NCBI RefSeq assembly: GCF_036669915.1
Contig: NC_089316.1
Location: forward strand, 28,026,169 to 28,090,168
From: Pocillopora verrucosa
Lineage: Eukaryota; Cnidaria; Anthozoa; Scleractinia; Pocilloporidae
DNA: 64,000 bases
Direction of reading: 5' to 3'
How positions within the stretch are numbered: position 1 is the first letter of the stretch; each line of letters begins with the position of its first letter. Both the position numbers and the translations under genes were made by a program. Below, piece by piece: positions 10,173-49,564 of the stretch. The notes beneath the pieces were generated by a model. That model was given only the letters and a program-made list of their open reading frames with translations, did not search any database and was not told the DNA's origin.

Positions 10173-10175
10173 GTG

Positions 10176-11135
10176 ATGACAAGTAAACTTTCCCTTGAGC
10201 TTACCACAAGAGAGGAGGCGTTAGTTTGGACTGAAACAGTTTTGTTTGCTGTTACCAATGTTGTGGCCATCCTTAGAAATCTCCTCATTCTTTGCGCCGT
10301 GTACCATAACCACAGACTACGCACGATTCCCAACATATTCGTAATAGCACTGGCTGTGAGCGATATTCTGATGTCTACTATATGTATGCCTTTTACAGTT
10401 GCAAGTCTTTTCCACGGCAGGTGGATCTTTGATGAAACGGTCTGCCGCTTTCAAGCATTTGATATCTTTGCGTTTGGGAAGTGTAGTCTTGGAACTATGG
10501 CAGCAATTGCAGTCAGCCGATATTTCTGTGTTGTTAATCGGGAAAAGTATCCCTCGCTGTTTAAGAAGCAAAGAGCCTTGATGTATATTTTCATCGTTTG
10601 GTGTTTAGCTCTGGTTGGATCTGTGCCCATATTAGTCTTCAAAAATGACAGCATTGAATTCCACCCTGGAAAAGCAATGTGTCTGTTCAAATTTGAAAGT
10701 AACATTGTTTACTCTGCCTCAATCCTTTGCTGTTTTATCACAACACCCTTGATTATCATCACGATCTGCTATGTCAAAGTGTTCCGCGCCGTGTCGAGAT
10801 CAAATCGTGTTTTCTCATTGGAAAATAACCCGGAACTTCTTCGGGTGAATGTGGAAGAAGCCCAAGTGACGAAGCGTTTGGTAGCAGTTGTGGTCGGCTT
10901 TGCATGCTGTTGGCTTCCTGTTTTTGTCGTTGATAACATCGACATGGCACGTGGAGAACCCACGCTACCACGACAAGTGTACTTAACTAACAGCCTCATA
11001 ATTTATCTGAGTAGCACCATAAACCCATTCATATATTGCGCCGCAGATAAGAGGTTCAGACGAGAGTACAAGGTTGTTTTGAGGAAGATTTTTACCTTTA
11101 AATGCCGAGACAACAGCGAGAACGGTAACGCTTAA
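10176..11135 (+). CDS. Class A (rhodopsin-like) GPCR, copy 1
   Basis: A single-exon, 319-aa receptor starting at the ATG at 10176; the GTG just before it is not needed. Seven hydrophobic segments are visible. Landmarks are Asn35 in TM1, Asp63 in TM2, Cys90 and Cys169 (expected TM3-ECL2 disulfide), SRY at 114-116 in place of DRY, Pro191 in TM5, CWLP at 245-248 in TM6 and NPFIY at 283-287 in TM7. The residue six before the NP asparagine is Tyr, so it is not a retinal-binding opsin. Arg34 replaces the usual Gly before TM1 Asn35, which is odd and could affect folding. It acts at the plasma membrane and would couple to G proteins. The ligand is unknown; resemblance to melatonin-type orphan receptors is only general. 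Its paralogue at 41028 is broken. Confidence 0.85.
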   Translation: MTSKLSLELTTREEALVWTETVLFAVTNVVAILRNLLILCAVYHNHRLRTIPNIFVIALAVSDILMSTICMPFTVASLFHGRWIFDETVCRFQAFDIFAFGKCSLGTMAAIAVSRYFCVVNREKYPSLFKKQRALMYIFIVWCLALVGSVPILVFKNDSIEFHPGKAMCLFKFESNIVYSASILCCFITTPLIIITICYVKVFRAVSRSNRVFSLENNPELLRVNVEEAQVTKRLVAVVVGFACCWLPVFVVDNIDMARGEPTLPRQVYLTNSLIIYLSSTINPFIYCAADKRFRREYKVVLRKIFTFKCRDNSENGNA

Positions 11136-11810: not shown

Positions 11811-13974
11811 AAAATATATTAAAGTTCACACGGCAACCAGGTGGACAATCAGACATAGTTTGAAGCTACACTGGTTTGCAGATTTAATGAATGTAACCGA
11901 AGAAGTTACAATTCATAGACCCAACGTTTCGACACTCCTGTCTAGTGCCTTCATCAGGGGTGATCTAAACGCTGCAACAAGAGGTCCTTTTATATGATCA
12001 CTAATTAGCGGCCTTTTTTCTGACGAGGTGTAAATAGGCGTCAGGAAGCAGACCGCCATCGTCACGATTTAAAGGAGCGTGGGCGGAGTTAATGTGCCAA
12101 GCCTCCAAACAAAGGCGCTGGTGGTAACGCCGATTAGTAGTGATAATTTTAGAATTATCCCACCCAATTGTATGGTTGGTTAGGCAAGTATGCTCCGATA
12201 AAGCTGAATTTTCCTTTTTGCAAAGAAAAACCGCTTTTTGGTGCTCTTTTAACCGTGTACCAAACTGGCGTTTGGTCTGTCCGATGTATTCGTTATCACA
12301 GTCATTGCAAGGAATAGAATAAATGGCGTCGGTTCGTTGTTCTTTCGTGACAGGATCCTTAGGTTTGGCGAAAATATGCCCCAAAGTCTGAAAAGGTTTT
12401 TGAGCAACTTTAACGTTGTGGCTATTCAAAATTCTCTTGATGGGTTCAGTAACACCCTGTATGTAAGGAATAACAGCAAAACCAGTCGCTGGTTCCCTTT
12501 CATCAAGAGCGTTACTATTTGTAACTGGTTTTTGGCAGTTACGGAGAAAAGTTTTTGTATAGCCATTTGCCTTTAGGACATTGGAAACGTATTTCCTCTC
12601 CTCAGCCTTCGAATCGAGTGATGATGGTAGACAATCAGCCCTCCTAAGTAAAGTTTTGGCTACAGACTTTTTATGGCAAATAGGATGGTGAGAATCGAAA
12701 GCGAGGTATTTGTCGGTGTGGGTGGGTTTACGATAGACACTTGTCTCTAAATTACCCTGAACCCCTCTAGACACATTTAAATCAAGAAAGGGCAAATGTC
12801 TATCCTTTTCACGTTCAAGGGTGAATTGGATCGACGGCTCTACTGAATTCAAATGCGACAAGAGGCGCTCCGCTTCATTTCCGGATACCGCAGAAATAAC
12901 ATCATCGACATATCGTTTCCAGAAAAAGGGTTTAACCGGTGAAGTGGCTAAGGCCCTTTGTTCCACGTCTTCCATTACCATGTTAGCAATGACAGCAGAA
13001 ACAGGCGAACCCATAGCTGTACCAAAAACTTGTTGATAGTATGTGCCGTTATATGTAAATTGCGTGGTTTTGAGGCAAAAAGACAGCAGATGAATAATAT
13101 CCTCCACAGGCAAAGAAGTTCTTTGTCCTAGGGAAGCATCTTCTCTGAGTCTTTCCTCCGCAACCTTAACGGCAAGATCAACTGGGATTTTAGTGAAGAG
13201 CGAAACAACGTCGAAAGATACTAATTCTTCACAAGCGTCAAGAGTTTTATCTCTTATGAAATCCGTAAATTCGCAGGAATTTTTGACAGTGTAATCAGTA
13301 TTCCCAACAACAGGCGACAAAATTCTCGCAAGATAACCAGAAATTGCATAAGTCGGAGAATTAACAAAAGAGACAATGGGTCTCAAAGGAATTCCCGGTT
13401 TATGAATTTTAGGTAAGCCATAAAAACGTGGACATAAGCCGTCACTACTGTATAACATTTTGTACGTAGAGTCACTAATTCTGCCAACTTTTTTCAAATC
13501 AAGCAACATTTTGTTTAACTTTCTTTGAGTTTTACTGGTTGGATCAGAGTTTAAGACAGCATACGTACTCTTGTCATTGAGCAGAGACAAAGCTTTGTCG
13601 TGATATTGCTGTTTGTCCATAACCACAACACAATTACCCTTGTCAGCAGATAATACGAGCCTGTCCGGATCCTTTTTGAGAGTTATAAGCGCATTGAAAA
13701 CATCCTTTTGAATGTTTTTGGGGGGAGGTTTAGCACGCCTGAGTACGCTACTTACTTCTGCTCTTACCAAATGCCTACGATCGTCGTCGAGTTGAGAGAT
13801 ACTCTCCTCAACAGCGGCGACAATTTCGGCGGTCGGTATTTTGCGAGGAGCAATAGCAAACTTTAGACCCTTCTCTAAACCACTCCGTTCCAGCGCGGAT
13901 AATTCCTTGGAGGAAAGGTTCATGACCCATTTATCTTTCAGAGATGAGCCTGAATTAACAGGATTAACAGTTTT
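11811..13974 (-). mobile_element. 5'-truncated Penelope-like retroelement
   Basis: An insertion of about 2.16 kb, flanked by the direct repeat TCCGCATTT (11802-11810 and 13975-13983), interrupts a block that is uninterrupted at 42572-42582, so the empty site is seen. It contains an RT plus GIY-YIG ORF (12001-14001, minus). Beyond the ORF, a 3' region carries a hammerhead-like motif. The N-terminal end is missing, consistent with 5' truncation on integration. Because the copy in spacer B lacks it, the insertion is younger than the spacer duplication. Confidence 0.85.
11915..11975 (-). ncRNA. Hammerhead-ribozyme-like motif in PLE 3' region
   Basis: On the minus strand the order is CTGATGA, a stem GGCACT / AGTGTC closing a 7-nt loop, then GAAAC, a short loop and GGTC (a GUC cleavage triplet). 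This is the conserved hammerhead core with a minimal stem III, as described for Penelope-like elements. I could not find a convincing closed stem I, so activity is uncertain. Confidence 0.55.
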
Positions 13975-14001
13975 TCCGCATTTGTTGCATTCTTCTTTCA
14001 T
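12001..14001 (-). CDS. Penelope-like element polyprotein: reverse transcriptase + GIY-YIG endonuclease (truncated)
   Basis: The frame is open to TAG at 12003-12001. The first ATG (14001-13999) lies in host flanking DNA, so the first nine or so residues are not element-derived. Recognisable parts, in order, are an N-terminal region with LSADKGNCVVVMDK, the RT fingers (YGLPKIHKPG.PLRPIVS), the palm aspartate region (SFDVVSLFT.IP), GTAMGSPVSA, and the catalytic box YVDD (codons at 12912-12901). LPFLDL and the C-terminal GIY-YIG-type nuclease follow, with AIYSIPC..C and EYIGQT (about 12220-12330). This domain order is diagnostic of endonuclease-bearing Penelope-like elements. The frame has no internal stop, but loss of the 5' part makes autonomous movement unlikely. 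Confidence 0.9.
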   Translation of the reverse strand: MKEECNKCGKTVNPVNSGSSLKDKWVMNLSSKELSALERSGLEKGLKFAIAPRKIPTAEIVAAVEESISQLDDDRRHLVRAEVSSVLRRAKPPPKNIQKDVFNALITLKKDPDRLVLSADKGNCVVVMDKQQYHDKALSLLNDKSTYAVLNSDPTSKTQRKLNKMLLDLKKVGRISDSTYKMLYSSDGLCPRFYGLPKIHKPGIPLRPIVSFVNSPTYAISGYLARILSPVVGNTDYTVKNSCEFTDFIRDKTLDACEELVSFDVVSLFTKIPVDLAVKVAEERLREDASLGQRTSLPVEDIIHLLSFCLKTTQFTYNGTYYQQVFGTAMGSPVSAVIANMVMEDVEQRALATSPVKPFFWKRYVDDVISAVSGNEAERLLSHLNSVEPSIQFTLEREKDRHLPFLDLNVSRGVQGNLETSVYRKPTHTDKYLAFDSHHPICHKKSVAKTLLRRADCLPSSLDSKAEERKYVSNVLKANGYTKTFLRNCQKPVTNSNALDEREPATGFAVIPYIQGVTEPIKRILNSHNVKVAQKPFQTLGHIFAKPKDPVTKEQRTDAIYSIPCNDCDNEYIGQTKRQFGTRLKEHQKAVFLCKKENSALSEHTCLTNHTIGWDNSKIITTNRRYHQRLCLEAWHINSAHAPLNRDDGGLLPDAYLHLVRKKAAN

Positions 14002-14660
14002 GCTGTAAGGGCCAGCTGCGCTTGGCAAAATAAATGCGACACAAAAACTTCTATGTGTCCTGATTCCTTGTATTCTTGTACAGGATAATCACAGCGAATG
14101 ACCAATAAGGATCCATCCAGCGACGATTCGAAGCTATTGCTTCTTACATAGCCTAAAATCCTTCGCTGAAACTAACTCGGCAAAAACGGCAAAAAAAAAA
14201 GCTGCAAGTAATGCTGAAGCAACGCTCACGGCATGGGGAACTGCGCCACAAGTATATTATCAGCGGCGCTTTAAACTGTATCAGGTAAATGCAACGAATC
14301 ATACACATGCTACTTTCTTGTTCAACTTTCTTTTCGTTCTGCTTTGAACGATACAATCAGGTTTCACGATGACATAATAGAGTGAACTTATCTTTGTAAG
14401 ACGATTTACACCCGAGACAAAATTATCATAAAAAGTCCAGGAACTCTAAGATTTATTTCAAGTTACTACAAGTCTCCTGTTACCTCATTTAGAAGCTGTC
14501 GCCAGTTCTTTTTCGCCAGTTATTTTGCAAAGTCAATGGTGGTGAATCTCCTGTAGGCTTGGGCTCCACCCTTTATATTCTGTTGTCAACGACTGATCCC
14601 CCTGTCTTTTCCCTTAGAACTACGTAACTCCCCAAACATCAAACAATTCCTTCCCCCTCT
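13984..14660. repeat. GPCR 3' repeat block, right part, and following shared spacer
   Basis: This continues the block split by the Penelope-like element and stays colinear with 42583-43270. It is non-coding; the small ORFs on the minus strand are chance frames. Confidence 0.6.
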
Positions 14661-16206: not shown

Positions 16207-17169
16207 ATGAGGAGAAACACACTTTCCCTTGAGCTCGCCACGGGGACGGAGGTGTTAGTTTCTACTGAAACAGTTTTGTTTGCTGTTACCAATGTTGTGG
16301 CCATCCTCGGAAATCTTCTCACTTTTTATGCTGTGTACAGAAACCACAGGCTGCGCACGATTCCCAACAAGTTCCTGATAGCTCTGGCTCTAAGTGATAT
16401 TCTGATGTCTACTATCTGTATACCTTTTACAGTTGCAAGTCTTTTCCACAGTAGGTGGATCTTTGGTGACACATTCTGTCGCTGGCAAGCATTTGATATA
16501 TTTACATTTGGGACGAGTAGTGTTGGAACTATGGCAGCAATTGCAGTCAGCCGATATTTCTGTGTTGTTAATCGGGAAAAGTATCCCTCGCTGTTTAAGA
16601 AGCAAAGATCCGTGATGTACATTTTCTTTGTTTGGTGCTTGGCTCTGGTTGGATCTGTGCCCATATTAGTCTTCAAAAATAACAGCGTTGAATTCCAGCC
16701 AGGAAAAGCAATGTGTCTGTACAAATTTGAAAGTAACATTGCTTACTCTGTCTTTATGCACTTCTGTTTTATCACAACACCCTTGATTATCATCAAGATC
16801 TCCTATTTCAAAGTGTTCCGCGCCGTGTCGAGATCAAATCGTGTTTTCTTACTGGAAAATAACCTGAAACTTCTTCGGGTGAATGTGGAAGAAGCCAAAG
16901 TGACGAAACGTTTGGAAGCAGTTGTGGTCGGCTTTGCATGCTGTTGGCTTCCCGTTTTCGTCGTTGATAACATCGACATGGCACGTGGAGAACCCACGCT
17001 ACCACGACAAGTGTACTTGACTAACAGCCTCTTAATTTACCTGAGTAGCACCATAAACCCATTCATATATTGTGCCACAGATAAGAGGTTCAGACGAAAG
17101 TATAAGGTTGTTTTGAGGAAGATTTTTACCTTTAAATGCCGAGACAACAGGGAGAACGGTGACGCCTAA
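16207..17169 (+). CDS. Class A GPCR, copy 2
   Basis: A 320-aa single-exon receptor; the ATG follows AAGGAG and begins MRRNT, unlike the MTSK start of copies 1 and 4. It has the normal TM1 GN pair, Asp in TM2 (LSDIL), Cys before TM3 (DTFCRW), SRY at 115-117, ECL2 Cys (AMCLY), CWLP at 246-249 and NPFIY at 284-288. Compared with its duplicate at 44788 it carries some unusual changes, such as Lys for Met in IPNKF and Glu for Val in KRLEAV at the start of TM6. These may weaken it. The C-tail ends CRDNRENGDA. A TM6-TM7 relic follows only about 30 bases after the stop. Confidence 0.85.
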   Translation: MRRNTLSLELATGTEVLVSTETVLFAVTNVVAILGNLLTFYAVYRNHRLRTIPNKFLIALALSDILMSTICIPFTVASLFHSRWIFGDTFCRWQAFDIFTFGTSSVGTMAAIAVSRYFCVVNREKYPSLFKKQRSVMYIFFVWCLALVGSVPILVFKNNSVEFQPGKAMCLYKFESNIAYSVFMHFCFITTPLIIIKISYFKVFRAVSRSNRVFLLENNLKLLRVNVEEAKVTKRLEAVVVGFACCWLPVFVVDNIDMARGEPTLPRQVYLTNSLLIYLSSTINPFIYCATDKRFRRKYKVVLRKIFTFKCRDNRENGDA

Positions 17170-22792: not shown

Positions 22793-22849
22793 GCCAGGAT
22801 GACTTAAAAGAACAACTTTTTAAGAAGCATCAGTCTTCTTACAGTTGCT

Positions 22850-25800
22850 ATGGCTACAGGAAGAAGTTCAATTAAAGTTCCATGTGAAAATGAAGACTTA
22901 CCTGACAAAGAAAATGCACCAGATTTTGACGAGGACACTTTACGAGGTGAGCTAGGTTCAACTTCGGCTTCATTTATTGTTAGAACAATTTCTATTCGAT
23001 CAGTTTCAAGAATGCAAGCAGATGTGGAAAAGGACATTTACAGTGTATGACCACTTTAAAGGATATTTGGCCAGTCATGACTCTCTTCTATGATTACAAT
23101 ATGCTGTTCATTGAGAAGATCTATGACACAGAAACTTTTGCTATTTTCTTTTCTAACAGTTCAAAGCAATAACACAAAGTTATAATAAGTTAAGACTTTA
23201 TTTGATCATCATATAACATCCACTGTGTAAGTTTGCATCATAGTTACCATCATCATCATCACCATCATCATCACCATCATCTTTCTATTTTAATGAAACA
23301 TAATCACTTTGAAACCTTCAACATTCCCTCCCTTCTCCTCGAGCAACCCACAGGCATTTGATCTTCATCCAAGCCAAAGAGGGTGGGGGGGGGGAGGGGG
23401 TTTTAAGCCTGCCTGGCTGGCGTTAGGGAATTTGAATAAAAACTGTCACATCTAATTTCCAGTAGAGTACAAGTGTTAATTATCATTGAATATGGAGGTG
23501 TTTAAGGTAGATAGTGTACTTTCACTTACAAATGGCTCAGAAGAAATAAGGCTTCAAGGTCTAGGTTTTAAAGCTTGGTCAATTAGTTTTTAAGGCTTGA
23601 TCAATTAGTTGAAAGTGAAATTCTTAATTATTTCGCCTTTTACATACGATTGTGTGGGGCATTTGAACAATTTATTAATTTTGCCCAGGGAATAGGAATT
23701 TTAGGAATCTCCAGGGGTTTTGCCTCGAATTCAGTGACGCTTATAATTCTCATCATTATTCTTACCCATGTTGTCACCTACATTGTTAGCATCATCATAA
23801 CTATCGAAAATCTGCAGATTTGAAATCTCCAGATCTTGGCAGCTCTGACTATACACGAATAATTATTAACTACGACCACAGACTTTGACACCCATTTTTA
23901 AATTTTTTTCGAATTATTTTACTTTTTCTTTGCAGCCACAGCTGATGTTTATAGGAATGAGGGTAATGAGGCCTTCAGGAAAGGAGATTTCATCAATGCT
24001 ATTCATTTTTACACCAAAGGAATTAAAATGAACTGCAATGACAAAGAACTGAAGGCCAAACTGCACAACAACAGGGCAATTGCACATTCTAAACTTGGTA
24101 AGATGATGAGAGCTTTAATATGCATTTTTTTTCTATTTTGAAGCTATTGAGTTGTCTGTAGTAGTTTTCTGAAAAAAGGTGATGATTTTGAATGCATGCC
24201 CGGAAAAATTTACATCTTATCTTGGCCTCTCAAATATACAAAGAAGTAACCTCTTACCCCAGATATCAACGAGCATCACGAGTTTTTCCCAAAATTACAG
24301 TAATGGTAGTTGGTTTGCAACATGTATGGTTAATCAGAGATATTTATTTCAATAACAGGAAATCACCAGGATTCACTAAGGGATGCAGAAGCAGCCATTG
24401 AGTCAAATCCAACTTTCCTTAAGGCAATTGTGAGAGGTTAGATATGTTAGCTGTACTATAATAATAGTAATAAAAAAAGAACTCAACACTCTAAGGTTAA
24501 ATGAGGTCAAATGGAGTTCAATCTTGTCTCAATTGACTTTAATTAAGAGGTCAAGACCACCCTTATGTACATTTGAATCCAGCTCTTGACTGCTACGCCA
24601 TTACTTCCATTAATCATGATGAGAATATTATTTTGAACGGGATGAAGAACTCAATGCGGAATGCAAAGCAAAATTTCAGCATGAATATTTTAGTTCCTTA
24701 AGTTCAATGAGTCACAGGTGTCAGATATGTTAAGAGCGTATCCACGAGAGCACCGGACAGTCGTGCTACATGCCATCTCACAGATTTCAATGAAACTTTG
24801 CCAGTTTAAAGGGTCTACCCCAAAACTCAAAAGACAAACTGGTTTCTGTTTTGGTTTTTTTCGGGGGGGAGATAGACCACTTTCTCGGTTTTTTCTTAGT
24901 TTTCACCAAGAAAATCGCTTCAAATAGGTAAAATGTATGAAGCTCTCATTGCGATGGTATTTAACCAATTACTTTGAGGATTTGTACACATATTTTTACA
25001 TCCTTAGTTAATGTCTGCTGCGAGCATCAGTCAGTTTGATGACGGCTTGTCAATCAACAGAGGCAAATATACGACTGTGTTTTTAGACTTTTCGATTCAT
25101 CCAAATATTTGACAACTTTGAGGTCAAATATCTCCCGTTGCCAGAAAGCTACAACACTAATCTTAATTACCCTTTATAACCGTTGTTCATGCTGTCTGCT
25201 AGATAACAATTTCAGAATAATCTGCAGCTCTCTATGATTATTTTCCTACTTCGATTGTAAAATATCTGCATATTTTTTTTTCAAGTATTCTATTACTACA
25301 TATAAATCCACATCTCTCTAGATCGAGTGTTGCCGGGTTTAATTGCGTGACTTGTAAAATTTTAAAATAAGAATGAGCCAGCAGTAATTTGACGAGTAGG
25401 CTTCCTGCAAATCTCCCTTGATGAAATCCTAAGACATAGCCAGTTGTTTTCGTGAGCAAAGACAATAAATATGAAAGAAAAGTGAGATGCAAATGTCTTT
25501 CTTTTTAGCGTAATAGCAGCTGTACCCTCTCCTGCAGTCTCCGTCTAAATTTTGCAAGGTCCCTCCTTATCTTCTGCCTTCAGTTGTTCGGTCAGTTTCG
25601 AATTCTGAAGCTAGATCATTGGCATCGGCCTCTCCGTCCTCATTCATATTTACAGAGGGGGACCTCATCAATAAACCAATTATTGTTACGGCAGAAAACT
25701 GGCTGAAGTATCGAGCGAATTGCTGCTGTATCAACCGGTCAGTCTTAGACAACATTTCTGGCTGGTGTCGTCTCTTAAACTCTCTCGATATTTGGGAAAT

Positions 25801-28800
25801 CACATTAGAGGCGGTTGCCTTACTAGTTTCCTCCCTTGCCCAGCACACGTCTAGGAGATAATTCTCTGCTTTCTGAGAAAAGGTGGCTGTGTTTTGTGTT
25901 TTCCAAAGAGCCTATCCAAAGTCCACTTGGCTAGTTGAGGATTGTTCGTCAGAATTTTTACCTGAGGTCCGACCTTGAACATAGCCATCCCCTACAGAAT
26001 GGCAAGCCAGTCTTAGTCCATTTCCTCTTGATCTTATCCTAGGCGGAATTTTTTTGTCGGCTTCACTGTGTTTGTCTTTGTCAGGGTACATTTAGATGGT
26101 AGCAAATGACTGAAACGTCTTGATACATCCTTCTTTTTGCAAGAATATCTCGCTTTCTTGTTCCGTCTATGACGGATTGGGTATAGTTCTCGCGATGACC
26201 CGCGTTCAGAAATCTGTGCACGTTGCTGATAACCACCCGCTTCTACGATTAGTTTGCTGAAGGTTTCTAATGTGATGAGCCTAGTGAGACCCTGAGGTGC
26301 TTCAAACCGTGCCAGTTGGTCTGCGCTATAAACTTGTCACAGTTCTTAAGTCAGAGGGAGGATCGCCCACCCCTATCTATGTGAGCTCCTCTACAGTACC
26401 TGCGTATCCCTTGCAATCATATGATATAAAGTTCATCTCAGTCAAAAATCACCAGCTAGGAAAACTGATGTTCAGATAAGCGCTCTTCTTGCCCTTCTTC
26501 CTTATTCATTGCCGACTCTAAGATAGCAGCTACAGTACGCGTTCTATTTAGGTTTACAGTCACCTTGCCGCCATCAGGAAGACTCGCCACCAGCTTTGAT
26601 TTCTTCTGCCATCTGCAGATTCATCTCTCTCCCACTTTATGTCTCCAATTTTTATGAGGAGGATACTGGCATTTACGAACCCGAAGGTCTGAATCTCACA
26701 CTAAGTTGTGCACGATATTTGAGGTACATCGTTAAATAGCGACCTTCGTAATCTCCAAATAAGCCAATACACGCTAGAATAAGCTCCATCTCGGACGAAA
26801 CACATGTTTGGGATACACCGACGTCTCTCAAATGTTTTTGTTTAAGCTGTATACCCACGAATTTAGAGGTATGAGCTGTTGCCGTCCCTGTCCAGCGCGA
26901 GAAAAATAACATTTGGTCCTACAGTTAGTTGCAAATGAACAAGACAACTGCCCCATCTTGACTTTATCAATTCGAGTGTTAGATTGAATTGAGGGCTTTT
27001 TAGACATTCGATTTCTTATATGGCATCACTATGAAGACGTAATACAACTGATACACCTACACTACATAGGATTAACAATGTCTGTTGCGCTGTTGCGAGA
27101 AGGAGGAAAATATTACCGGAAGTGTAAACTCTTTTTAAAAAGAGTTTCAGAGACGTTTCAGAGATGTCTATCTTTGATCGGCTGTCACAAAAAAATGACC
27201 CCCACTTAAATTTACACGGAAAAATGAACTTACCAACTCCTTGTTGAAAAAATTGGAATTCATTTGACCGATACGCCGGCTTTTTCCTCGGGCTGCTATA
27301 AAACAGTTCATAAATTGACTAATGAATAAAATGTTTTGAAATACCGTTCGAAATTTGCCTTTTTTTTTGCGTGCAAATCAAGGGTAGACGAAGTTTTTAA
27401 AACATTTGACTAGAATGTCATGGAGTTCACCTCGATAATTTTCGTCGGCCAGAGTCAAGACGCGCCAAGGTAAGCGACATCGCCCTCCAGTAAAATAATT
27501 TTCCAAAGAATAAACGTGGCAAGCGTGAGGAAACGCACATTTTTTTATCATTGTGATCAAAGCCCAATGATGTACCTAAACTGGTACTTACGGTATCAAA
27601 CCATTGATTATGACAGGATGAGCTTAATTTTTCTGTCGAGGTTGACGTGATTTCACATTAAAAGCGTTTTTGACGGAACAAACTAGTGAGCATCGCTGCA
27701 CGAACTGAGAAAGTAAAAACTTGTTTTTATCTCCCACGCGTTTCGTCTGACAATAGTAGACTTCATCAAGGATTTTTCAAGTAGGGTAAATAAGCTTTCT
27801 CATATACAAATAGTAAATAAGTTGTCTCTTTGCTATTGAAGCCAGTGGATAGAATTCGCCAGGTGCGCCTAAGGTGTTATGCATGCGTGACATTTTCCGG
27901 ACGTTACATGTACGAGTACGTGATCCGTTTGAGGGTCACAGATTTAGGGTAAATATTTCACCCCTCAACATCACGCAATGTCTCTAGTTTATAGAGGTCT
28001 TAAAACGTTTCATTATATGGAGTTGCCTTCTGCGGGTAGAAGGCTACAAGCGAATTTCTCAGGCGTAATTGCCTTTGATTTCTCAATTGATGTTGTCGCA
28101 AACACAGTTTTTGGGAGTCAAGAGACAAAAAAACTTATCAGGACCTAGTTTCATGTTCTAATGGAAATAGATAGCAAATAGAAACACATTTTCTTGAGAA
28201 ATAAAGTCACAAATGACGGGGGTTCTCTGAAACAAATAGTGATAGAAAACGATTTCAGTTCTGGTCAATATTGACTTTTCATGGCCTACTTCCAAATCTG
28301 AGAGAACGCACGCGTAGTTAATAATATATGGGGCTATTGATATTTCCTATCAAAGAAGGGGGGGCAGAGTTTCCCGTCATTCGCGGTATGGAAAAGCCGA
28401 AGTTGTTACCCTCGGGAACTTGTACGTCAACAAGCAGGCGACATGTGACTCTAAAATCTCCTCTACTGTTACAGTTTCCTTATTGTAAACTGTGCGATAA
28501 TGATAATAGACGATCAAAGTATAGGCTAATGAATGTTTTGTTCTGTACAAGAGCCCAATGTCCTGATTTTAGCAAATCTTCATAGTAATAAACGACTGAA
28601 GAAAGAAACGCAACGATTTTCCCATTGATTTTTCGTCTACATGCATCTCTCTAAACGTGAAATTTTCCATTCCTACAAAAAATCTCGAAAGTTTTTCACA
28701 TTTTTCACCTTTCTTGATCAATCATCTTGTATAAAGAGCTAAAAAATGTAGGTTTATTTTGTCAAGTGACCGCCTAGAGCAAGAAGTGCGTGACAGGTGT

Positions 28801-31800
28801 AGTTGAGAGAAACTTGTCACAGTCGCAGATTTTAAAAGGCATCCAAGACAAAAATATGGTAGTGCCCAAAGATTTTTTTGATGATTTTTAGAGATGAAAT
28901 GATGGGTTATAAAGGGTAATTAAGATAAGTGTTGCAGCTTTCTGGCAACTGGAGATATTTGACCTCAAAGTTGTAAAATATTTAGATGAATCGAAAAGTC
29001 TAAAAACACAGTCGTATATTTGCCTCTGTTGATTGACAAGCCGTCAATCGAACTGACTGATACTCGCGGCGGCCATTAACTAAGGATGTAAAAATATGTG
29101 TGCAAATCCTCAAAGTAACTGGTTAAATACCATCGCAATGAGAGCTTCATGCATTTTACCTATTTGAAGCGATTTCATTGGTGAAAACCAAGAAAAACCG
29201 GGGGGTGGTCTATCTCCCCACAGAAAAAAACCAAAACAGAAACCAGTCTGTTTTTTTGAGTTTTGGGGTAGAGCCTTTAAACTGACAAAGTTTCATTGAA
29301 ATCGGTGGGATGGCATGTAGCACGACTGTCCGGTGCTCTCGTGGACACGCTCTTAAGTCACTATCTAGCTGTTTTAGAAAGAAGGATCAGGACTTACCTA
29401 ACTCTTAGTGTTTTTTTGGGAGTTTTTGATCCCAAATTAAGTGTTCTTAGAAGTTTCAGTTGTCTGTAAAGCTAAATAAATCTAACTGAAACTTAATAGG
29501 GCCTGTTTATTCTTTTCCGTTTAGTTTTTTTTGTTTTGTTTGTTTTGTCTTTTTTTTTTCTTCTGGTCTGTAATGATTTCAATGGTTTCAGGTTCTTTTC
29601 TCAGAATTGAGCTACAGTAATTGTATGCTTCTTTGTGTTGTTGCCTACAGGAGCCACTGCTTGTGTTGAATTGAAGAGATTTGAAGAAGCAATCACTTGG
29701 TGTAATAAGGGACTAGCTGTATCCTTTGAAGGAATCTTTCATTTTTAACCGTGGGTATTAAAAAAAGTTTCCATAATTTGATGTTTTAAGGGAGAAAATA
29801 CAAAGAAGGGTATTAATTATGATGGGAACTTATCAGTTCATATACTTTAAGTGTGTGTGATTAAAAACATAGGAGAAGTTATTACCTCATGACTTATTAA
29901 TGAAATTACTCCTTTTAGCCAATTTGACTTAGTTCTACTATCCATGCCAATAACTGGTACATTAGTTTAAATAACCCTTTAATTTCCCAGACCAAATTTG
30001 TAATTATCCTTACTGTCAACCATACAATTCTTGTAATGTTAGTACAGAGAATTCAGTATTGCATCAACTAACTATTTTCAAATTGATATATATTTTTTTA
30101 CTCTCAACACTTATCTGATTGATATTGTATTGCTATTGTAAGGAGAAATTCTCTTTTGGTCACTCACGGGAGTTAAAGGGTTAGAAGACTAATATTCATC
30201 CAGTTTATACATAGTACTTGGGTAGATGATCTCTCTAAAACAAGCCAGAACAAAAAGCTCGGTAATGTTTACATATTTTATGCAGATTTTCTCGCCTTCG
30301 ACCTTTTTCCACTATTTAGAGACTCGGAAACTTTCGTCCTGCTTTCCTATGGACAAATAAAAATTTTAAAGACATGTGTTTGTGTTGTAGACTCATTTCT
30401 TCCACTGCTGTAAAACATTTGTCTGATGTTAAAGCTATATTAATTTAAAAATTGAGCAAGTGCTGCTCAGTTTTTGGAAACTAAGGATTAAATCTAGATA
30501 TTTCGCGTTAAATTTTGAGGCTGTAGACAGAAAAAACATTTTTTGAAGTGTAGATTTACTTCATAACTGACTTTAAGACTGAATGTTGATAAATCATTTA
30601 CCTTTCATGCAAAGCCCTCCTAATGGGCCATTTCATAGTCGTGTACTTAGTTGCCAAGCCTTTGATTTGGAGTGAGGCTGAAGGTGACCTTGTTGTGATA
30701 GAGACCGGTATCTAGAAACGATAACAACAAAGTAGTTTGCATTTAAAAAGCAGCAATGTTTTTATCATAACAAGGTCAGCCTTTATCATCCCTCTTGTTC
30801 AGAAGCTTGGGAACCAAGCACGCAAATGTTAAAATGGACTATTACATATCAATATGATCAGAAACATAATCTTTTTTGTTTTTCCACATTTAACCCTTAA
30901 CATAAAAAAAAAGATTGACCAAAACAATAGGATCTTGTTGTCATTAAGACTTCAGTCTGTCAGAGAAGTGGGAGATAAGTCCAAGAAGGAAAAAGATCCT
31001 ATTAGTCATGACCACGTTAGCGCAAGTTCAGGTGATATCAAGAAAGTCATAGACTTCTATAATTGGGGAGAAGCCATAGAGTACCTAAACCTACATCTTA
31101 AAATAGCAAAAGAAGTAGGAGACAAGCATGGGGAGGGTGGTGCTTATGGCAATCTTGGCAATGCTTTTCACCGTCTGGGTGATTTCAAAAAAGCCATAGA
31201 GTACCACAACCTACATCTTAAAATAGCTAAAGAAGTAGGAGACAAGCATGGGGAGGGTCGTGCTTATGGTAATCTTGGCAATGCTTTTCACCGTCTGGGT
31301 GATTTAAAAAACGCCATAGAGTACCGCAACCTACATCTTAAAATAGCTAAAGAAGTAGGAGACAAGCATGGGGAGGGTAGTGCTTATGGCAATCTTGGCA
31401 GTGCTTATTCTAGTCTGGGTGATTTCAAAAAAGGCATAGAGTACCACAACCTACATCTTAAAATAGCTAAAGAAGTAGGAGACAAGCATGGGGAGGGTAG
31501 TGCTTATGGCAATCTTGGCAATGATTATTCTAGTCTGGGTGATTCCAAAAAAGCCAAAGAGTACCACAACCTACATCTTAAAATAGCTAAAGAAGTAGGA
31601 GACAAGCATGGGGAGGGTAGTGCTTATGGCAATCTTGGCAATGCTTATTCTAGTCTGGGTGATTTCAAAAAAGCCATAGAGTACCACAACCTACATCTTA
31701 AAATAGCTAAAGAAGTAGGAGACAAGCATGGGGAGGGTCGTGCTTATGGCAATCTTGGCAATGCTTATTTTAGTCTGGGTGATTTAAAAAAAGCCATAGA

Positions 31801-34800
31801 GTACCACAACCTAGATCTTAAAATAGCTAAAGAAGTAGGAGACAAGCATGGGGAGGGTCGTGCTTATGGCAATCTTGGCAATGCTTATTCTAGTCTGGGT
31901 GATTTAAAAAAAGCCATAGAGTACCACAACCTAGATCTTAAAATAGCTAAAGAAGTAGGAGACAAGCATGGGGAGGGTAGTGCTTATGGCAATCTTGGCA
32001 TTGCTTATTCTAGTCTGGGTGATTTCAAAAAAGCCATAGAGTACAACAACCTACATCTTAAAATAGCTAAAGAAGTAGGAGACAAGCATGGGGAGGGTAG
32101 TGCTTATGGCAATCTTGGCAGTGCTTATTCTAGTCTGGGTGATTTCAAAAAAGGCATAGAGTACCACAACCTACATCTTAAAATAGCTAAAGAAGTAGGA
32201 GACAAGCATGGGGAGGGTAGTGCTTATGGCAATCTTGGCAATAATTATTCTAGTCTGGGTGATTCCAAAAAAGCCAAAGAGTACCACAACCTACATCTTA
32301 AAATAGCTAAAGAAGTAGGAGACAAGCATGGGGAGGGTAGTGCTTATGGCAATCTTGGCAATGCTTATTCTAGTCTGGGTGATTTCAAAAAAGCCATAGA
32401 GTACCACAACCTACATCTTAAAATAGCTAAAGAAGTAGGAGACAAGCATGGGGAGGGTCGTGCTTATGCCCATCTTGGCAATGCTTTTCACCCTCTGGGT
32501 GATTTCAAAAAAGCCATAGAGTACCACAACCTAGATCTTAAAATAGCTAAAGAAGTAGGAGACAAGCATGGGGAGGGTGGTGCTTATGGCAATCTTGGCA
32601 ATGCTTATTCTAGTCTGGGTGATTTCAAAAAAGCCATAGAGTACCACAACCTACATCTTAAAATAGCTAAAGAAGTAGGAGACAAGCATGGGGAGGGTCG
32701 TGTTTATGCCAATCTTGGCAATGCTTATCGCCGTCTGGGTGATTTCAAAAAAGCCATAGAGTACCACAACCTACATCTTAAAATAGCTAAAGAAGTAGGA
32801 GACAAGCATGGGGAGGGTCGTGCTTATGCCCATCTTGGCAATGCTTTTCACCCTCTGGGTGATTTCAAAAAAGCCATAGAGTACCACAACCTAGATCTTA
32901 AAATAGCTAAAGAAGTAGGAGACAAGCATGGGGAGGGTGGTGCTTATGGCAATCTTGGCAATGCTTATTCTAGTCTGGGTGATTTCAAAAAAGCCATAGA
33001 GTACCACAACCTACATCTTAAAATAGCTAAAGAAGTAGGAGACAAGCATGGGGAGGGTGGTGCTTATGGCAATCTTGGCAATGCTTATCGCCGTCTGGGT
33101 GATTTCAAAAAAGGCATAGAGTACCACAACCTACATCTTAAAATAGCTAAAGAAGTAGGAGACAAGCATGGGGAGGGTCGTGTTTATGCCAATCTTGGCA
33201 ATGCTTTTCACCGTCTGGGTGATTTCAAAAAAGCCATAGAGTACCACAACCTACATCTTAAAATAGCTAAAGAAGTAGGAGACAAATCCTTGGAGGCAAT
33301 GGCCTACTGCTCATTAGGATGCCTTTCTGAGTTGCAAGGTGGACTGCCAAAAGCCGTTGAACATTACCAAGCTAGCATAAACTTATTTAATTCCTTGAGA
33401 GTACTTCTTAAATCTAGAGATGAGTGGAAAGTTAATTTTCGAAATCAGCATCAAATGGCGTATACGGGTTTGTGGAGAGTTCTCGTAGAACAAGGTAATG
33501 TAGATGAAGCCTTATTTGTTGCTGAGAAAGGACGAGCTCAAGCTCTAACCGACCTCATGGAATCCATTTTTCGTGGTGGAACAAGTCACCACAAGGGAGA
33601 AGATGAAGATTGCGCAGTTTTAAAAAACGTTCCATCAAACACTGTCTTTCAGGCAGTGGACGAAGCTAACGTCAATCTTTGGGTTGTGTCCGAAGGAAAA
33701 CAAGTTCAGTTAAGACAAAGTAAACTCAAAGGTTTTGTTTCAGAGAATAGTGGATCTAGCCAGTCCTTTGAGTCGTTCATGCTCGGTGTCTATACACAAC
33801 TTGGTGTTCGTTCTAATGTGAGATGCGAGAATCGATCTTTAGATGCTTTGAGGGAGGGCCGTTCAAAAGTGGATGAGAAAACCAAAGAAGCCAACCCTCA
33901 ACCTCACTTCCAACAAGACGGATGCTTGAGCACTTTGTATGATATCGTTATGAAGCCGGTGGCTGACTTGATTCAAGGGGATGAGCTACTCATTATTCCT
34001 GATGGACCCCTGTGGATCGCTCCTTACGCTGCATTGAAGGATGGTAATTCTAAATACCTGTGTGAATCGTTCACAATCCGAGTCGCTCCATCGTTAGCAA
34101 GTCTTAGACTCATTGCCGATTGCCCAGATGATTATCACAAAAGCAGTGATGCGTTACTTGTAGGAGATCCTTGGGTATCCGAGGTTACTAACAGCGAGGG
34201 AGAGAAAGTCCTCGAGCAGCTTCCGTCTGCTAAAGAAGAAGTAGAAATGATCGGAGAAATTCTGAATATCACGCCAATCACTGGCAGAAAAGCCACGAAA
34301 CGTGAGGTGTTGAAAAGACTCAGTTCCGTTTCCTTAGCTCACTTTGCGGCACACGGATGTATGGAAACTGGCGAAATTGCTCTTACACCTGACCCAGACC
34401 GAATATCTTCTGTGCCTACCAAGAAAGAGGATTACATTTTAACGATTCGAGATGTGTTGAATGTTCAACTTCGCGCTAAACTTGTTGTGCTCAGTTGCTG
34501 CCACAGTGGTCGGGGCGAGATCAAGGCTGAAGGTGTGGTTGGCATTGCGCGCGCTTTTATGGGGGCTGGTGCTCGGTCTGTTGTGGTGTCCCTGTGGGCG
34601 ATTGATGACGAGGCTACTCTCGAGTTCATGAAATGCTTTTATCAACACCTTGCAGAAGGTAAATCTACAAGCAAGTCACTGAACCTGGCCATGAAAAGCC
34701 TCAGAGAATCAGATGAGTTCCACGACATCAAGTACTGGGCGCCCTTTTTGCTGATTGGAGATGACCTCACGTTTGACCTGATGGCAAAGGAAAGAGAAAA

Positions 34801-34825
34801 TTTGAATAGAAAATCAAATAAATGA
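22850..34825 (+). CDS. TPR-CHAT protein gene B (complete, five coding exons)
   Basis: Coding exons are 22850-22946, 23936-24097, 24359-24436, 29651-29718 and 30914-34825. All introns have GT...AG ends and phases match, giving 1438 aa. Exons 1-4 (residues 1-135) start MATGRSS and encode an acidic leader, then classical TPRs ([35 protein letters not shown]). Exon 5 encodes 19 TPRs of 40 residues (about 190-950), a helical linker and a CHAT domain (about 1140-1421), with His1282 in AAHG and Cys1331 in LSCC. The start follows a likely spliced 5' UTR (acceptor at 22791-22792). The intron 4 donor (GTATCC) is weak and its acceptor lies in an A-run, so that junction is the least certain. It is probably cytosolic; no signal peptide or TM is seen. 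Peptidase activity is inferred from the intact dyad. Confidence 0.85.
22947..23935 (+). other. Intron 1 of gene B
   Basis: The donor is GTGAGC and the acceptor TTTGCAG. It contains an ATC/ACC trinucleotide microsatellite (about 23248-23282) and a G-rich run near 23383-23401. Intron 1 of gene C is near-identical but has a longer microsatellite. Confidence 0.85.
24730..25181. repeat. Left terminal inverted repeat
   Basis: It starts TTAAGAGCGTATCCACGAG and ends TACCCTTTATAACC. It pairs with 28905-29356 along its full length with scattered substitutions and small indels. Confidence 0.85.
25500..26912 (-). pseudogene. Degenerate minus-strand ORF relics inside the TIR element
   Basis: Broken frames suggest one decayed coding region read from 26912 towards 25567. 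They include a piece with [18 protein letters not shown], a piece with [19 protein letters not shown], a piece with [19 protein letters not shown], and a 93-residue open piece with [17 protein letters not shown]. They are separated by stops and frameshifts. I do not recognise a transposase catalytic signature, so the family is unassigned. The position inside long TIRs makes a transposase or accessory gene likely. Confidence 0.35.
27738..27770 (-). ncRNA. Degenerate hammerhead-like motif
   Basis: On the minus strand it reads TTGATGA, a stem TCT...AGA, then GAAACGCGT. This resembles dispersed hammerhead motifs, but the essential first C of CTGATGA is T here, so it is probably inactive. Confidence 0.3.
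28905..29356. repeat. Right terminal inverted repeat
   Basis: Inverted copy of 24730-25181, starting GGTTATAAAGGGTAAT and ending CGTGGACACGCTCTTAA. Confidence 0.85.
29719..30913 (+). other. Intron 4 of gene B
   Basis: The 1.2 kb is non-coding. The donor GTATCC is weak. The acceptor AAAAAG follows the pyrimidine-rich stretch TTTTTGTTTTTCC at 30875-30887. The frame upstream of 30914 stays open back to an ATG at 30854, which could serve as an alternative start for an intron-retained or alternative-promoter transcript. Confidence 0.6.
31083..33300 (+). repeat. 19-unit 120-bp coding tandem array (TPRs)
   Basis: Eighteen units carry DKHGEG at exact 120-bp spacing from 31121 to 33161, and a closing unit carries DKSLEA at 33281. 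Higher-order duplications are visible. The three-repeat block 31379-31738 recurs at 32099-32458 (720-bp shift) with one amino-acid change (NDY/NNY), and 32459-32699 recurs at 32819-33059 (360-bp shift). This indicates recent unequal exchange or conversion. Confidence 0.95.
33926..34780 (+). other. CHAT peptidase domain of gene B
   Basis: Order of motifs: [48 protein letters not shown] (His codon 34352-34354), [11 protein letters not shown] (Cys codon 34499-34501), [20 protein letters not shown], and [11 protein letters not shown]. This is the usual CHAT layout, with the His and Cys separated by about 49 residues. Confidence 0.85.
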
Positions 34826-41027: not shown

Positions 41028-41931
41028 ATGACAAGTAAACTCTCCCTTAAGCTTGCCACAAGAGAAGAGGAGTTAGTTTGGACTGAAACAGTTTTGTTTG
41101 CTGTTACCAATGTTGTGGCCATCCTTGGAAATCTCCTCACTCTTTGCGCCGTGTACCATAACCACAGACTACGCACGATTCCCAACAGATTCGTAATAGC
41201 ACTGGCTGTGAGCGATATTCTGATGTCTACTATATGTATGCCTTTTACAGTTGCAAGTCTTTTCCACGGCAGGTGGATCTTTGATGAAACGGTCTGTCGC
41301 TTTCAAGATATCTTTGCGTTTGGGAAGTGTAGTCATAAAACTATGGCAGCAATTGCAGTCAGCCGATATTTCTGTGTTGTTAATCGGGAAAATTATCCCT
41401 CGCTGTTTAAGAAGCAAAGAGCCTTGATCTATATTTGGTGAAGTGGATCTGTGCCCATATTAGTCTTCAAAAATGACAGCATTGAATTCCACCCTGGAAA
41501 AGCAATGTGTCTGTACAAATTTGAAAGTAACATTGCCTACTCTGCCTCAATCCTTTGCTGTTTTATCACAACACGCGTTCCACGCCGTGTCGAGATCAAA
41601 TCGTGTTTTCTCATTGGAAAATAACCCGGAACTTCTTCGGGTGAATATGGAAGAAGCCAAAGTAACGAAGCATTTGGTAGCAGTTGTGGTCGGCTTTGCA
41701 TGCTGTTGGCTTCCCGTTTTTGTCGTTGATAACATCGACATGGCACGTGGAGAACCCACGCTACCACGACAAGTGTACTTAACTAGCAGCCTCATAATTT
41801 ATCTGAGTAGCACCATAAACCCATTTATATATTGCGCCGCAGATAAGAGGTTCAGACGAGAGTACAAGGTTGTTTTGAGGAAGATTTTTACCTTTAAATG
41901 CCGAGAAAACAGCGAGAACGGTAACGCCTAG
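41028..41931 (+). pseudogene. GPCR pseudogene (duplicate of copy 1)
   Basis: It begins MTSKLSLKLATREEEL and stays in frame to TM4, where a deletion gives YIW-stop at about 41441. A 6-bp deletion (RFQDIF for RFQAFDIF) removes two residues before TM3. Another deletion of about 35 bp in TM5 joins ITTR to the ICL3. The rest, through CWLP and NPFIY, matches copy 1 to the stop at 41931. It cannot make a seven-helix receptor. Confidence 0.9.
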
Positions 41932-44787: not shown

Positions 44788-45750
44788 ATGAGGAGAAACA
44801 CACTTTCCCTTGAGCTCGCCACGAGGACAGAGGCGTTAGTTTGTACTGAAACAGTTTTGTTTGCTGTTACCAATGTTGTGGCCATCCTCGGAAATCTTCT
44901 CACTTTTTATGCTGTGTACAGAAACCACAGGCTGCGCACGATTCCTAACATGTTCCTGATAGCTCTGGCTCTAAGTGATATTCTGATGTCTACTATCTGT
45001 ATACCTTTTACAGTTGCAAGTCTTCTCCACGGTAGGTGGATCTTTGGTGACACAGTCTGTCGCTGGCAAGCATTTGATATGTTTACATTTGGGACGAGTA
45101 GTGTTGGAACTATGGCAGCAATCGCAGTCAGCCGATATTTCTGTGTTGTTAATCGGGAAAAGTATCCCTCGCTGTTTAAGAAGCAAAGATCCGTGATGTA
45201 CATTTTCTTTGTTTGGTGCTTGGCTCTGGTTGGATCTGTGCCCATATTAGTCTTCAAAAATGACAGCATTGAATTTCAGCCAGGAAAAGCAATGTGTCTG
45301 TACAAATTTGAAAGTAACATTGCTTACTCTGTCTTTATGCACTGCTGTTTTATCACAACACCCTTGATTATCATCAAGATCTCCTATTTCAAAGTGTTCC
45401 GCGCCGTGTCGAGATCAAATCGTGTTTTCTCACTGGAAAATAACCTGGAACTTCTTCGGGTGAATGTGGAAGAAGCCAAAGTGACGAAGCGTTTGGTAGC
45501 AGTTGTGGTCGGCTTTGCATGCTGTTGGCTTCCCGTTTTTGTCGTTGATAACATCGACATGGCACGTGGAGAACCCACGCTACCACGACAAGTGTACTTG
45601 ACTAACAGCCTCTTAATTTACCTGAGTAGCACCATAAACCCATTCATATATTGTGCCACAGATAAGAGGTTCAGACGAGAGTATAAGGCTGTTTTCTGGA
45701 AGAGTTGTGGCTTCAAATGCCGAGCTAACAACGAAAACAACAACGCTTAA
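44788..45750 (+). CDS. Class A GPCR, copy 3 (chimeric C-tail)
   Basis: A 320-aa single-exon receptor, the duplicate of 16207-17169. It has the TM1 GN pair, LSDIL in TM2, DTVCRW, SRY at 115-117, ECL2 Cys (AMCLY), CWLP at 246-249 and NPFIY at 284-288. All hallmarks are intact, and the Lys and Glu oddities of copy 2 are absent, so this is a good candidate for a working receptor. From about 45680 the C-tail (YKAVFWKSCGFKCRANNENNNA) and the 3' flank no longer match copy 2 (YKVVLRKIFTFKCRDN). They match the relic at 47700-47779 almost exactly, which points to gene conversion or unequal crossover. Confidence 0.88.
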   Translation: MRRNTLSLELATRTEALVCTETVLFAVTNVVAILGNLLTFYAVYRNHRLRTIPNMFLIALALSDILMSTICIPFTVASLLHGRWIFGDTVCRWQAFDMFTFGTSSVGTMAAIAVSRYFCVVNREKYPSLFKKQRSVMYIFFVWCLALVGSVPILVFKNDSIEFQPGKAMCLYKFESNIAYSVFMHCCFITTPLIIIKISYFKVFRAVSRSNRVFSLENNLELLRVNVEEAKVTKRLVAVVVGFACCWLPVFVVDNIDMARGEPTLPRQVYLTNSLLIYLSSTINPFIYCATDKRFRREYKAVFWKSCGFKCRANNENNNA

Positions 45751-47256: not shown

Positions 47257-47779
47257 TGGATCTGCTCCCACATTACTCTTCACAAATGGCAGTGTTGAGT
47301 TCCAGCCTGGAAAAGCAATGTGTTCGTTCAAAGTTGAAAGTAACATTGCTTACTCAGTCACTATGCACTGCTGTTTTATCACAACATCCTTGAGTATCAT
47401 CACGGTCTGCTATGTCAAAGTGTTCCGCACCGTGTCAAGATCAAATCGTGTTTTCTCATTAAAAAATAATCCAGAACTCCTTCGGGTGAATGTGCAGGAA
47501 GCCAAAGTGACGAAGCGTTTGGTTGCAGTTATGGTAGGCTTTGCATGCTATTGGCTTCCTATTGCCATCATTGACAACATCGACATCGCGCACGGAGAGC
47601 CAACGCTACCACGATTAGCTTACTTAACATACGGCTTTTTGCTTTACTTGAGTAACACCATAAACCCTTCATATATTGTGCCACAGATAAGAGGTTCAGA
47701 CGAGAGTATAAGACTGTTTTCTGGAAGAGTTTTGGCTTCAAATGCCGAGCTAACAACGAAAACAACGACGCTTAACTGA
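47257..47779 (+). pseudogene. GPCR pseudogene (TM4-TM7)
   Basis: It starts GSAPTLLFTNGSVEFQPG and passes through TM5, ICL3 and a TM6 with YWLP instead of CWLP. It reaches NTINP, where a one-base loss shifts the frame (NPSYIVP instead of NPFIYCA). TM1-TM3 are missing. The end of the sequence matches the tail of receptor copy 3. Confidence 0.85.
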
Positions 47780-48879: not shown

Positions 48880-49564
48880 TTAACCTCCGCGATCTTATAT
48901 GCTCATCCAAAAAAAATTAGCTCCCCCATACGATGCCGAAAATTGTTAATAACAGAATGGATTTCAATTTTTTTCTGAGAGAGGGTTTTAGTTTTTCTCC
49001 AGATATTTTTTATTGCAGAAATGAGAGTTGTTAAAACTCCTCAAGATATCTTATCCCTTTCGTGAGCGGCGGAATAATATGATAGCTTATTGACAAGCAG
49101 CGTGAAGAGATTGTACAGATAAGATGCGGAAAAATAGAAGTAACATCTTTTCTTTACTCGAAAGAGATATGTCGATTATTAAAAGCAATTCAACAACACT
49201 TATCCGGAAGTAAATCACATAGTTCAAATATAATAAAACTTTTTAAGCAACAACGACATACTGCACGAGCTCTCGCCGAACAGAAACAGTTGTCATTTGG
49301 CCTTACAACTACCAACTTGATGAGAATGATAACAACGATGACATACAGACATTTTTTAATATTCATTAATTGCAATGCGTTTAAAGATAAGATGTGATGA
49401 AAAACAACATTTGTTTTTCGGTGTTGGTAGACAGTGTTGGTAATCGCGCACACCAGCGGGTTTCGCCGATCACTGCTTCAAAAAGTCGACAACAAAGACT
49501 GTGCAGAAGTTTAACTGAGTTCCTTTTTTTCCGCCGAGCTCGAGCTTATTGACCAAAAGCGGTG
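48880..49564 (+). promoter_or_regulatory. Type-2 GPCR upstream block, copy 2
   Basis: Similar to 40330-41027 and precedes receptor copy 4. It is the likely 5' UTR and promoter region, without identifiable single sites. Confidence 0.35.

Follow-up and report, generated by a model that had tools for sequence, protein, structure and literature searches.

A five-exon TPR-CHAT gene of Pocillopora verrucosa, a probable recognition protein with variable codons focused on the presumed concave repeat face and an intron bearing U12-type signals

Does a long open reading frame (ORF) of near-identical tetratricopeptide repeats (TPRs) ending in a CHAT domain represent an intronless gene, or is it the last exon of a larger one, and what kind of protein does it encode? 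The question is raised by gene B (positions 22850–34825, + strand) in a 64,000-nt stretch of the Pocillopora verrucosa contig NC_089316.1, referred to below as the window (28,026,169–28,090,168, i.e., G000:C5:28026169-28090168, from an assembly of 353 Mb in 52 contigs). Gene B is a member of the known coral-expanded TPR-CHAT/TTC28-like family, and its product most likely acts inside the cell as a recognition protein whose output is proteolysis. The analysis covers one genome and mostly one tandem cluster: the 220 kb lying 3' of the window (L009–L030) were read along with it as a joined stretch of 284 kb, including 5000 bases represented by N, with one further copy upstream of copy A and another downstream of copy G falling outside this stretch.

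The five exons, when joined, yield a single open frame of 1438 amino acids, and all four introns are of the GT-AG type. Exon 1 (22850–22946), identical in six of the six tandem copies, harbors the start ATG, preceded by an in-frame stop at 22805, and encodes residues 1–33. The spliced ORF and the tandem copies also delimit exon 2 (23936–24097), the first part of a co-chaperone-like TPR head with 62 strong genomic matches (>70 bits, its own included), exon 3 (24359–24436), the next piece of the head, and exon 4 (29651–29718), where the head ends. Together, these four exons comprise 405 nt, or 135 codons, upstream of exon 5 (30914–34825), which is outlined by its ORF and by Pfam matches and encodes a linker, the TPR array, and the CHAT domain. 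Within the 284 kb, all five exons are present in six copies (B–G) with every splice dinucleotide kept; the reading frame ends roughly ten codons early in copy C and is shifted downstream of the array in copy F. An earlier reading of this DNA made from the letters alone (the sequence-only reading) had put forward the same five-exon, 1438-residue protein with residues 1–135 derived from four small upstream exons, and its coordinates are confirmed here. It relied, among other things, on exon matching with gene C, which holds as well: exons 1–3 of B and C differ at one of 337 coding nt, and introns 1 and 2 at 18 of 1245 aligned nt. The "5.2 kb of intron" said to separate the small exons from exon 5 is the length of intron 3 only (5214 nt); introns 1–4 add up to 7659 nt.

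The competing gene model has the large ORF begin at the ATG at 30854 as a gene without introns and assigns the small exons to a different gene. The frame is indeed open from 30854 in copy B, but this ORF is absent or broken in five of the six copies: four copies (C, D, F, and G) have this ATG 58 instead of 60 bases 5' of exon 5, which puts it out of frame, with a stop after 20 amino acids, and copy E has no equivalent ATG. Moreover, a U12-type donor and a branch-point motif flank the junction of exons 4 and 5 in all six copies (with one base altered in the donor of F), and the same donor follows 54 of the 62 strong heads found genome-wide. The intronless model, already discarded in the sequence-only reading, fails in copies C, D, E, F, and G, and was rejected here as having next to no chance of being right. 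The conservation of exons in six copies and the failure of the single-exon ORF settle the gene model, short of RNA; taken by itself, the model of five exons and 1438 residues is considered virtually certain.

Intron 4 (29719–30913) deserves separate consideration. Its donor, GTATCCTTT, fits the U12-type 5' splice site (A/G)TATCCTT, representing the GT-starting (G) variant of the latter, and the putative branch-point motif CCCTTAAC is found 12 nt 5' of exon 5. The accessible part of the published account gives the U12-type consensus as ATATCCTT for the donor and TCCTTAAC for the branch point (PMC2831892). The donor is retained in five of the six copies (it reads GTATCCTAT in F), and CCCTTAAC, with one mismatch to the consensus, occurs 10–12 nt 5' of exon 5 in all six. 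Since either motif alone would be unsurprising in 64 kb (0.63 donor and 2.9 branch-point motifs expected by chance), it is their placement and conservation that carry weight. In the genome, a 24-base donor pattern with ≤3 mismatches returned 62 matches vs. 3 for a reversed control; 54 of these follow, at a distance of 0.9–15 kb and on the same strand, 54 different exons among those of the 62 strong heads. These 54 donors display 4 differences in total at positions 1–9 and 42 at positions 10–24, although the mismatch limit itself favors conserved sites; branch points were inspected in a few of the 54. The same donor, GTATCCTTT, along with the branch-point motif CCCTTGAC, is present in the divergent paralogue L042, where the head is about 50% identical. 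Hence, intron 4 seems to be an old feature of the family and to have multiplied along with it. By its signals, it is a U12-type (minor-class) intron, and its removal by the minor spliceosome is predicted. Neither these signals nor the focused variation of the repeats described below had been noted in the sequence-only reading.

Two observations on this intron stand on their own. Copy F, frame-shifted after the array, is the only one of the six copies with an altered U12 donor (G000:C5:28231736). A second TPR subfamily is represented by the L042 locus (G000:C5:24229200-24234199): its head is split into exons in the same way, the U12 donor is shared, and the repeats number at least 23.

The array occupying most of exon 5 is matched by the Pfam TPR families PF13424 and PF13176 with 498.7 and 319.9 bits, respectively. 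It comprises 18 regular 40-residue units (31130–33289, residues 208–927); with one degenerate unit discerned by eye at each end, the figure of 19 TPRs given previously is fair. The regular units were cut by a script, so degenerate end units were possibly missed; 86 units were obtained, including 18, 11, 15, 11, 10, and 13 from copies B–G (hence 10–18 per array) and 8 from the visible part of A. Within arrays, the mean amino acid identity of units is 0.865–0.915, the lowest pair being 0.75, and the mean DNA identity is 0.939–0.954 within copies and 0.93–0.95 between them. The unit identity across paralogues bears out the homogenised TPR body postulated earlier. Homogenisation operating gene by gene was considered and found unsupported, the repeats being about equally alike between and within copies; such likeness implies an exchange or a recent origin common to the whole cluster. 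In copy B, units 3–5 share 100, 99.2, and 100% of their DNA with units 9–11, and units 12–13 are the same as units 15–16; these repeated blocks are a sign of recent unequal exchange.

Against this uniform background, the variation is concentrated in a few positions. Ranking of the unit positions by entropy (86 units from seven copies) placed 14, 4, 15, and 29 at the top. In an ungapped alignment with the consensus TPR, unit positions 14 and 15 correspond to TPR positions 12 and 13, and unit position 4 to TPR position 2 by extension of the register. According to published work on TPRs (PMC1261162), variability is highest at positions 2, 5, 9, 12, 13, 33, and 34, which belong to the concave face that contacts the ligand. 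At equal odds, the top three positions out of 40 would all belong to such a group of seven with a probability of 0.0035, a rough value inasmuch as two of the seven cannot be mapped to the unit. Codons 15 and 29 never change in their third base but show a first-base diversity of 0.53 and 0.49, respectively; in codons other than 4, 14, 15, and 29, the mean diversity is as low as 0.016, 0.033, and 0.039 at the three bases. Among the 86 units, 42 distinct combinations of residues at the four positions occur. The L042 array, which is independent of the choice of positions, has 14, 7, 31, and 4 as its top positions in the same register; since unit position 7 is equivalent to TPR position 5, this array likewise concentrates its variation on the concave side, but not all of the positions recur. 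Such a pattern would be expected of a recognition protein.

If the array recognizes, the CHAT domain (PF12770; 33923–34762, residues 1139–1418) is the candidate for the output. It was detected by Pfam with E=1.1e-59 and 202.7 bits vs. a cut-off of 24. The alignments point to His1282 (codon 34352–34354) and Cys1331 (codon 34499–34501) as the predicted catalytic residues: eight CHATs from the window and the genome all share the two His of the HxxxHG motif and the second Cys of SCCHSG, and L003, having lost the first Cys, keeps the second. His1282 and Cys1331 are also invariant in five of five sequences, three of which are bacterial; bacterial relatives were found at these 3 loci, and a search with two peptide patterns gave no viral relatives. 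The profile built from the five sequences matched the solved protein 8rot (E=4.9e-5) with both His and Cys regions aligned, and Csx29 (7y9x, E=0.0033) mainly in the Cys region. In a weaker match to 8d9f (E=0.034; the same stretch of 7x8a, E=0.04), Cys1331 falls on residue 627 in the 7x8a numbering, by residue count. This number matches that of the proven catalytic Cys627 of Craspase, the substitution of which by Ala or Ser abolishes the activity, according to the accessible part of the report (PMC9729208). The pN/pS ratio (of the proportions of nonsynonymous and synonymous differences) in the CHAT region is 0.27 over seven copies. Alignment to paralogues and solved CHAT proteins thus upholds the intact His-Cys dyad at the residues named in the sequence-only reading, and catalysis is predicted. 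A scaffold or pseudoprotease, in which the CHAT fold would be kept for binding and the array would only display partners, might be suggested by human TTC28, which is not known to retain the catalytic Cys, but appears quite improbable in view of the invariance of His1282 and Cys1331 in the eight CHATs of the genome and window and in the three bacterial relatives.

The head encoded by exons 1–4 is a three-TPR domain. Apart from engineered TPRs, its closest solved structures are STI1, SPAG1, SGTA, RPAP3, and CNS1; the head profile matched 91 distinct solved sequences with E≤0.001, e.g., STI1 (7kw7, E=9.2e-29) and CNS1 (6hft, E=1.5e-12). The PF18972 (TTC4) profile matched neither the head nor any control. 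The carboxylate clamp of co-chaperone TPRs is made up of K, N, N, K, and R, and the respective positions of the head, R39 (a conservative replacement), N43, N78, K108, and R112, are kept in six of six copies. They align with STI1 residues 8, 12, 43, 73, and 77, which we take to form the clamp of that protein. The pN/pS of the head is 0.51 over six copies. The matches to solved TPR domains and the clamp pattern agree with the earlier description of the head as co-chaperone-like.

Is the union of this head with a CHAT domain peculiar to gene B? Of 503 candidate CHATs and 622 candidate heads in the genome, 135 and 150, respectively, were scored, so a missing head or CHAT partner proves nothing. 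As head places, 139 of the 150 scored matches were retained (62 strong, >70 bits, and 77 weak) after exclusion of ten rows matching only around exons 3 and 4 and of one partly degenerate exon-2 row (C13:15157672). A scored CHAT was situated within 25 kb 3' on the same strand for 48 of the 62 strong heads and for 14 of the 77 weak ones. As a control, within 12 kb of the strong heads on the same strand, a CHAT was found downstream in 41 cases and upstream in 3, and the opposite strand had none; extending the range to 25 kb gave 48 downstream, 22 upstream, and 0/62 on the opposite strand, the 22 upstream cases arising because tandem neighbors come into reach. With the intron-4 donor after 54 of the 62 strong heads and a CHAT 3' of 48, the fusion represents a common plan of the family and not the special design it had been taken for. 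Likewise, the idea that the head is unique to gene B was rejected, as it is common to dozens of copies. Human TTC28 has the same head/array/CHAT plan. Of the weak heads, a single locus was read (L042, 1/77), and it runs into a TPR array; glycosyltransferase bodies behind the weak heads were also considered and rejected, the 102 scored GT1 matches being located mostly elsewhere, as judged by eye.

Taken together, the head, the array, and the CHAT dyad sustain a part of the sensor-plus-protease interpretation advanced in the sequence-only reading; the special character of the fusion does not stand, and an immune role stays an inference, albeit better founded now owing to the focused variation at ligand-contact positions. 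The notion of a recognition receptor with a protease output is drawn by analogy with the activation of Craspase, as described in the accessible part of PMC9729208. From sequence, we infer the ligand, the substrate, chaperone docking, protease activity, and the immune role, along the following lines. The head would bind to Hsp90 or Hsp70 at the acidic C-terminus and thereby keep the receptor competent, and the concave face of the array would bind a diverse ligand. Binding of the ligand would free the CHAT protease, and cleavage of its target might trigger a defense or death response, as in Craspase. Specificity could change by shuffling, gain, and loss of repeat cassettes.

Several points weigh against this reading. 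The solved proteins matched by the head include many unrelated TPR proteins, and the clamp pattern is no proof of chaperone binding. A head was detected for only 61 of the 135 scored CHATs. In the array, the third base also varies at codons 4 (0.25) and 14 (0.58), and synonymous variation is high there: pN is 0.60 vs. a pS of 0.64 at codon 14, and 0.46 vs. 0.25 at codon 4. Over 77 distinct DNA units, pN/pS is 1.10 for the array, 2.39 for codons 4, 15, and 29, and 1.50 for codons 4, 14, and 15, but these codons were picked for their variability, which biases the ratio upward, and the repeat units share ancestry and hence are not independent. Unit position 29 lies outside the seven classical contact positions, two of the latter (unit positions 7 and 11) vary little, and the top four positions of L042 include 14 and 4 without 15 or 29.

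An alternative would be a TTC28-like housekeeping protein (cytokinesis/cytoskeleton) multiplied neutrally in tandem, its repeat variation reflecting drift under homogenisation by gene conversion. Published accounts, in their accessible parts, link human TTC28 with the cell cycle or with cytokinesis (PMC9145168, PMC12314368). The tandem duplication involves unrelated genes of G protein-coupled receptors (GPCRs) as well, two of the six copies (C and F) bear lesions, and pN/pS of the array outside codons 4, 14, 15, and 29 amounts to 0.79 (77 distinct DNA units), which is close to neutral. Still, drift hardly accounts for variation confined to a handful of codons (in two of which the third base is fixed) amid nearly invariant neighbors, nor for the CHAT pN/pS of 0.27 or for copies numbering in the dozens, so the housekeeping explanation is regarded as unlikely. 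The recognition role, like the preferred explanation as a whole, is considered moderately probable. A broader proposition is more tentative and rather doubtful at present: that of an animal receptor repertoire with a CHAT output and shuffled TPR cassettes bearing a three- or four-residue concave code, convergent with fungal NLRs, with dozens of its genes dependent on one amplified minor-class intron.

The implications extend beyond gene B, since published coral genomes contain up to hundreds of TPR-CHAT genes. Hypervariable contact positions turn the idea of "diverse TPRs, diverse partners" into a testable claim of recognition receptors with proteolytic output, and the repeat codes together with the repeat number offer a simple score for differences between individuals and species. 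Because of the amplified U12-type intron, automated annotation may break TPR-CHAT genes into pieces or cut them short, and dozens of these genes could be under the control of a single splicing machinery.

As regards the neighborhood of gene B, the 3' part of tandem copy A (1–2533, +), recognized by its ORF and Pfam matches, contains eight regular repeats and a CHAT. Exons 1–3 of copy C reside at 62374–62470, 63479–63640, and 63902–63979 (62374–63979, +), and this gene runs past the window end. Most of intron 3 of gene B is made up of an inserted element (24730–29356) recognized by its terminal inverted repeats of about 452 bp, with no ORF >100 amino acids listed in it; a related element is present in intron 3 of copies C–G, and intron 3 of the paralogue L038 (629 bp) is too short for it. 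Rhodopsin-type GPCR genes arranged in tandem (10173–11135, 16207–17169, 44788–45750, and 49562–50545, all +; partial copies at 41473–41931 and 47318–47779) are interspersed with the TPR-CHAT copies and seemingly co-duplicated with them; the one gene scanned matched 7tm_1 with E=6.9e-48. An ORF of 675 amino acids at 12001–14028 (−) encodes a reverse transcriptase, with RVT_1 just under the Pfam cut-off and a YIG motif near the end; it is presumably a Penelope-like element.

Among the known systems, the closest is the coral TPR-CHAT/TTC28-like family itself. In the accessible parts of its descriptions (PMC12314368, PMC9145168, PMC6208414), a long PF13424/PF13176 array is likewise followed by one CHAT, with large tandem expansions and array lengths varying between copies. 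The gene counts reach 276 and 304 in two Acropora species and 362 in Pocillopora effusa (PMC12314368), and such genes were noted earlier in Montipora and Pocillopora. In contrast to gene B, the spliced head, the U12-type intron, and the variation at concave positions go unmentioned in those parts. No literature joining near-identical repeats or concave variation with animal TPR-CHAT proteins was found in searches outside of which most subscription journals lay. As for a U12 intron in TTC4 or TTC28, one paper listed deals with copy-number variation in the dog, and the word TTC28 is absent from the ten listed of 192 others. As far as these searches reach, the amplified minor-class intron and the pattern of repeat variation are new.

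The clamp co-chaperones (STI1/Hop, SGTA, Cns1/TTC4) resemble gene B in the head match and the clamp pattern, but the head here precedes a TPR array and a CHAT instead of co-chaperone domains. Craspase (TPR-CHAT/Csx29 of type III-E CRISPR; PMC9729208, accessible part) shares the order of TPR and CHAT and a catalytic Cys aligned by residue count. It differs in that the profile matches are weak (E=0.0033 for 7y9x and 0.03–0.04 for 8d9f/7x8a, the latter in the Cys region only) and in that the array of gene B is long and homogenised. The fungal NLRs of Podospora, as far as the accessible texts go (PMC4986451, PMC12222747), are alike in their near-identical TPR, ANK, or WD repeats, variable repeat number, and few hypervariable codons on the concave or interaction face. 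In the TPRs of one fungal NLR, three concave-side positions are reported to be under selection, and the authors deduced concerted evolution combined with diversifying selection (PMC4986451). The mean amino acid identity of 0.865–0.915 in the coral arrays exceeds the >85% repeat identity by which such fungal repeats are distinguished. No NACHT or NB-ARC domain was detected in the exon-5 ORF by Pfam at E 0.001, the output here being a CHAT domain; given that the two groups belong to different kingdoms, the likeness between them would be a case of convergence.

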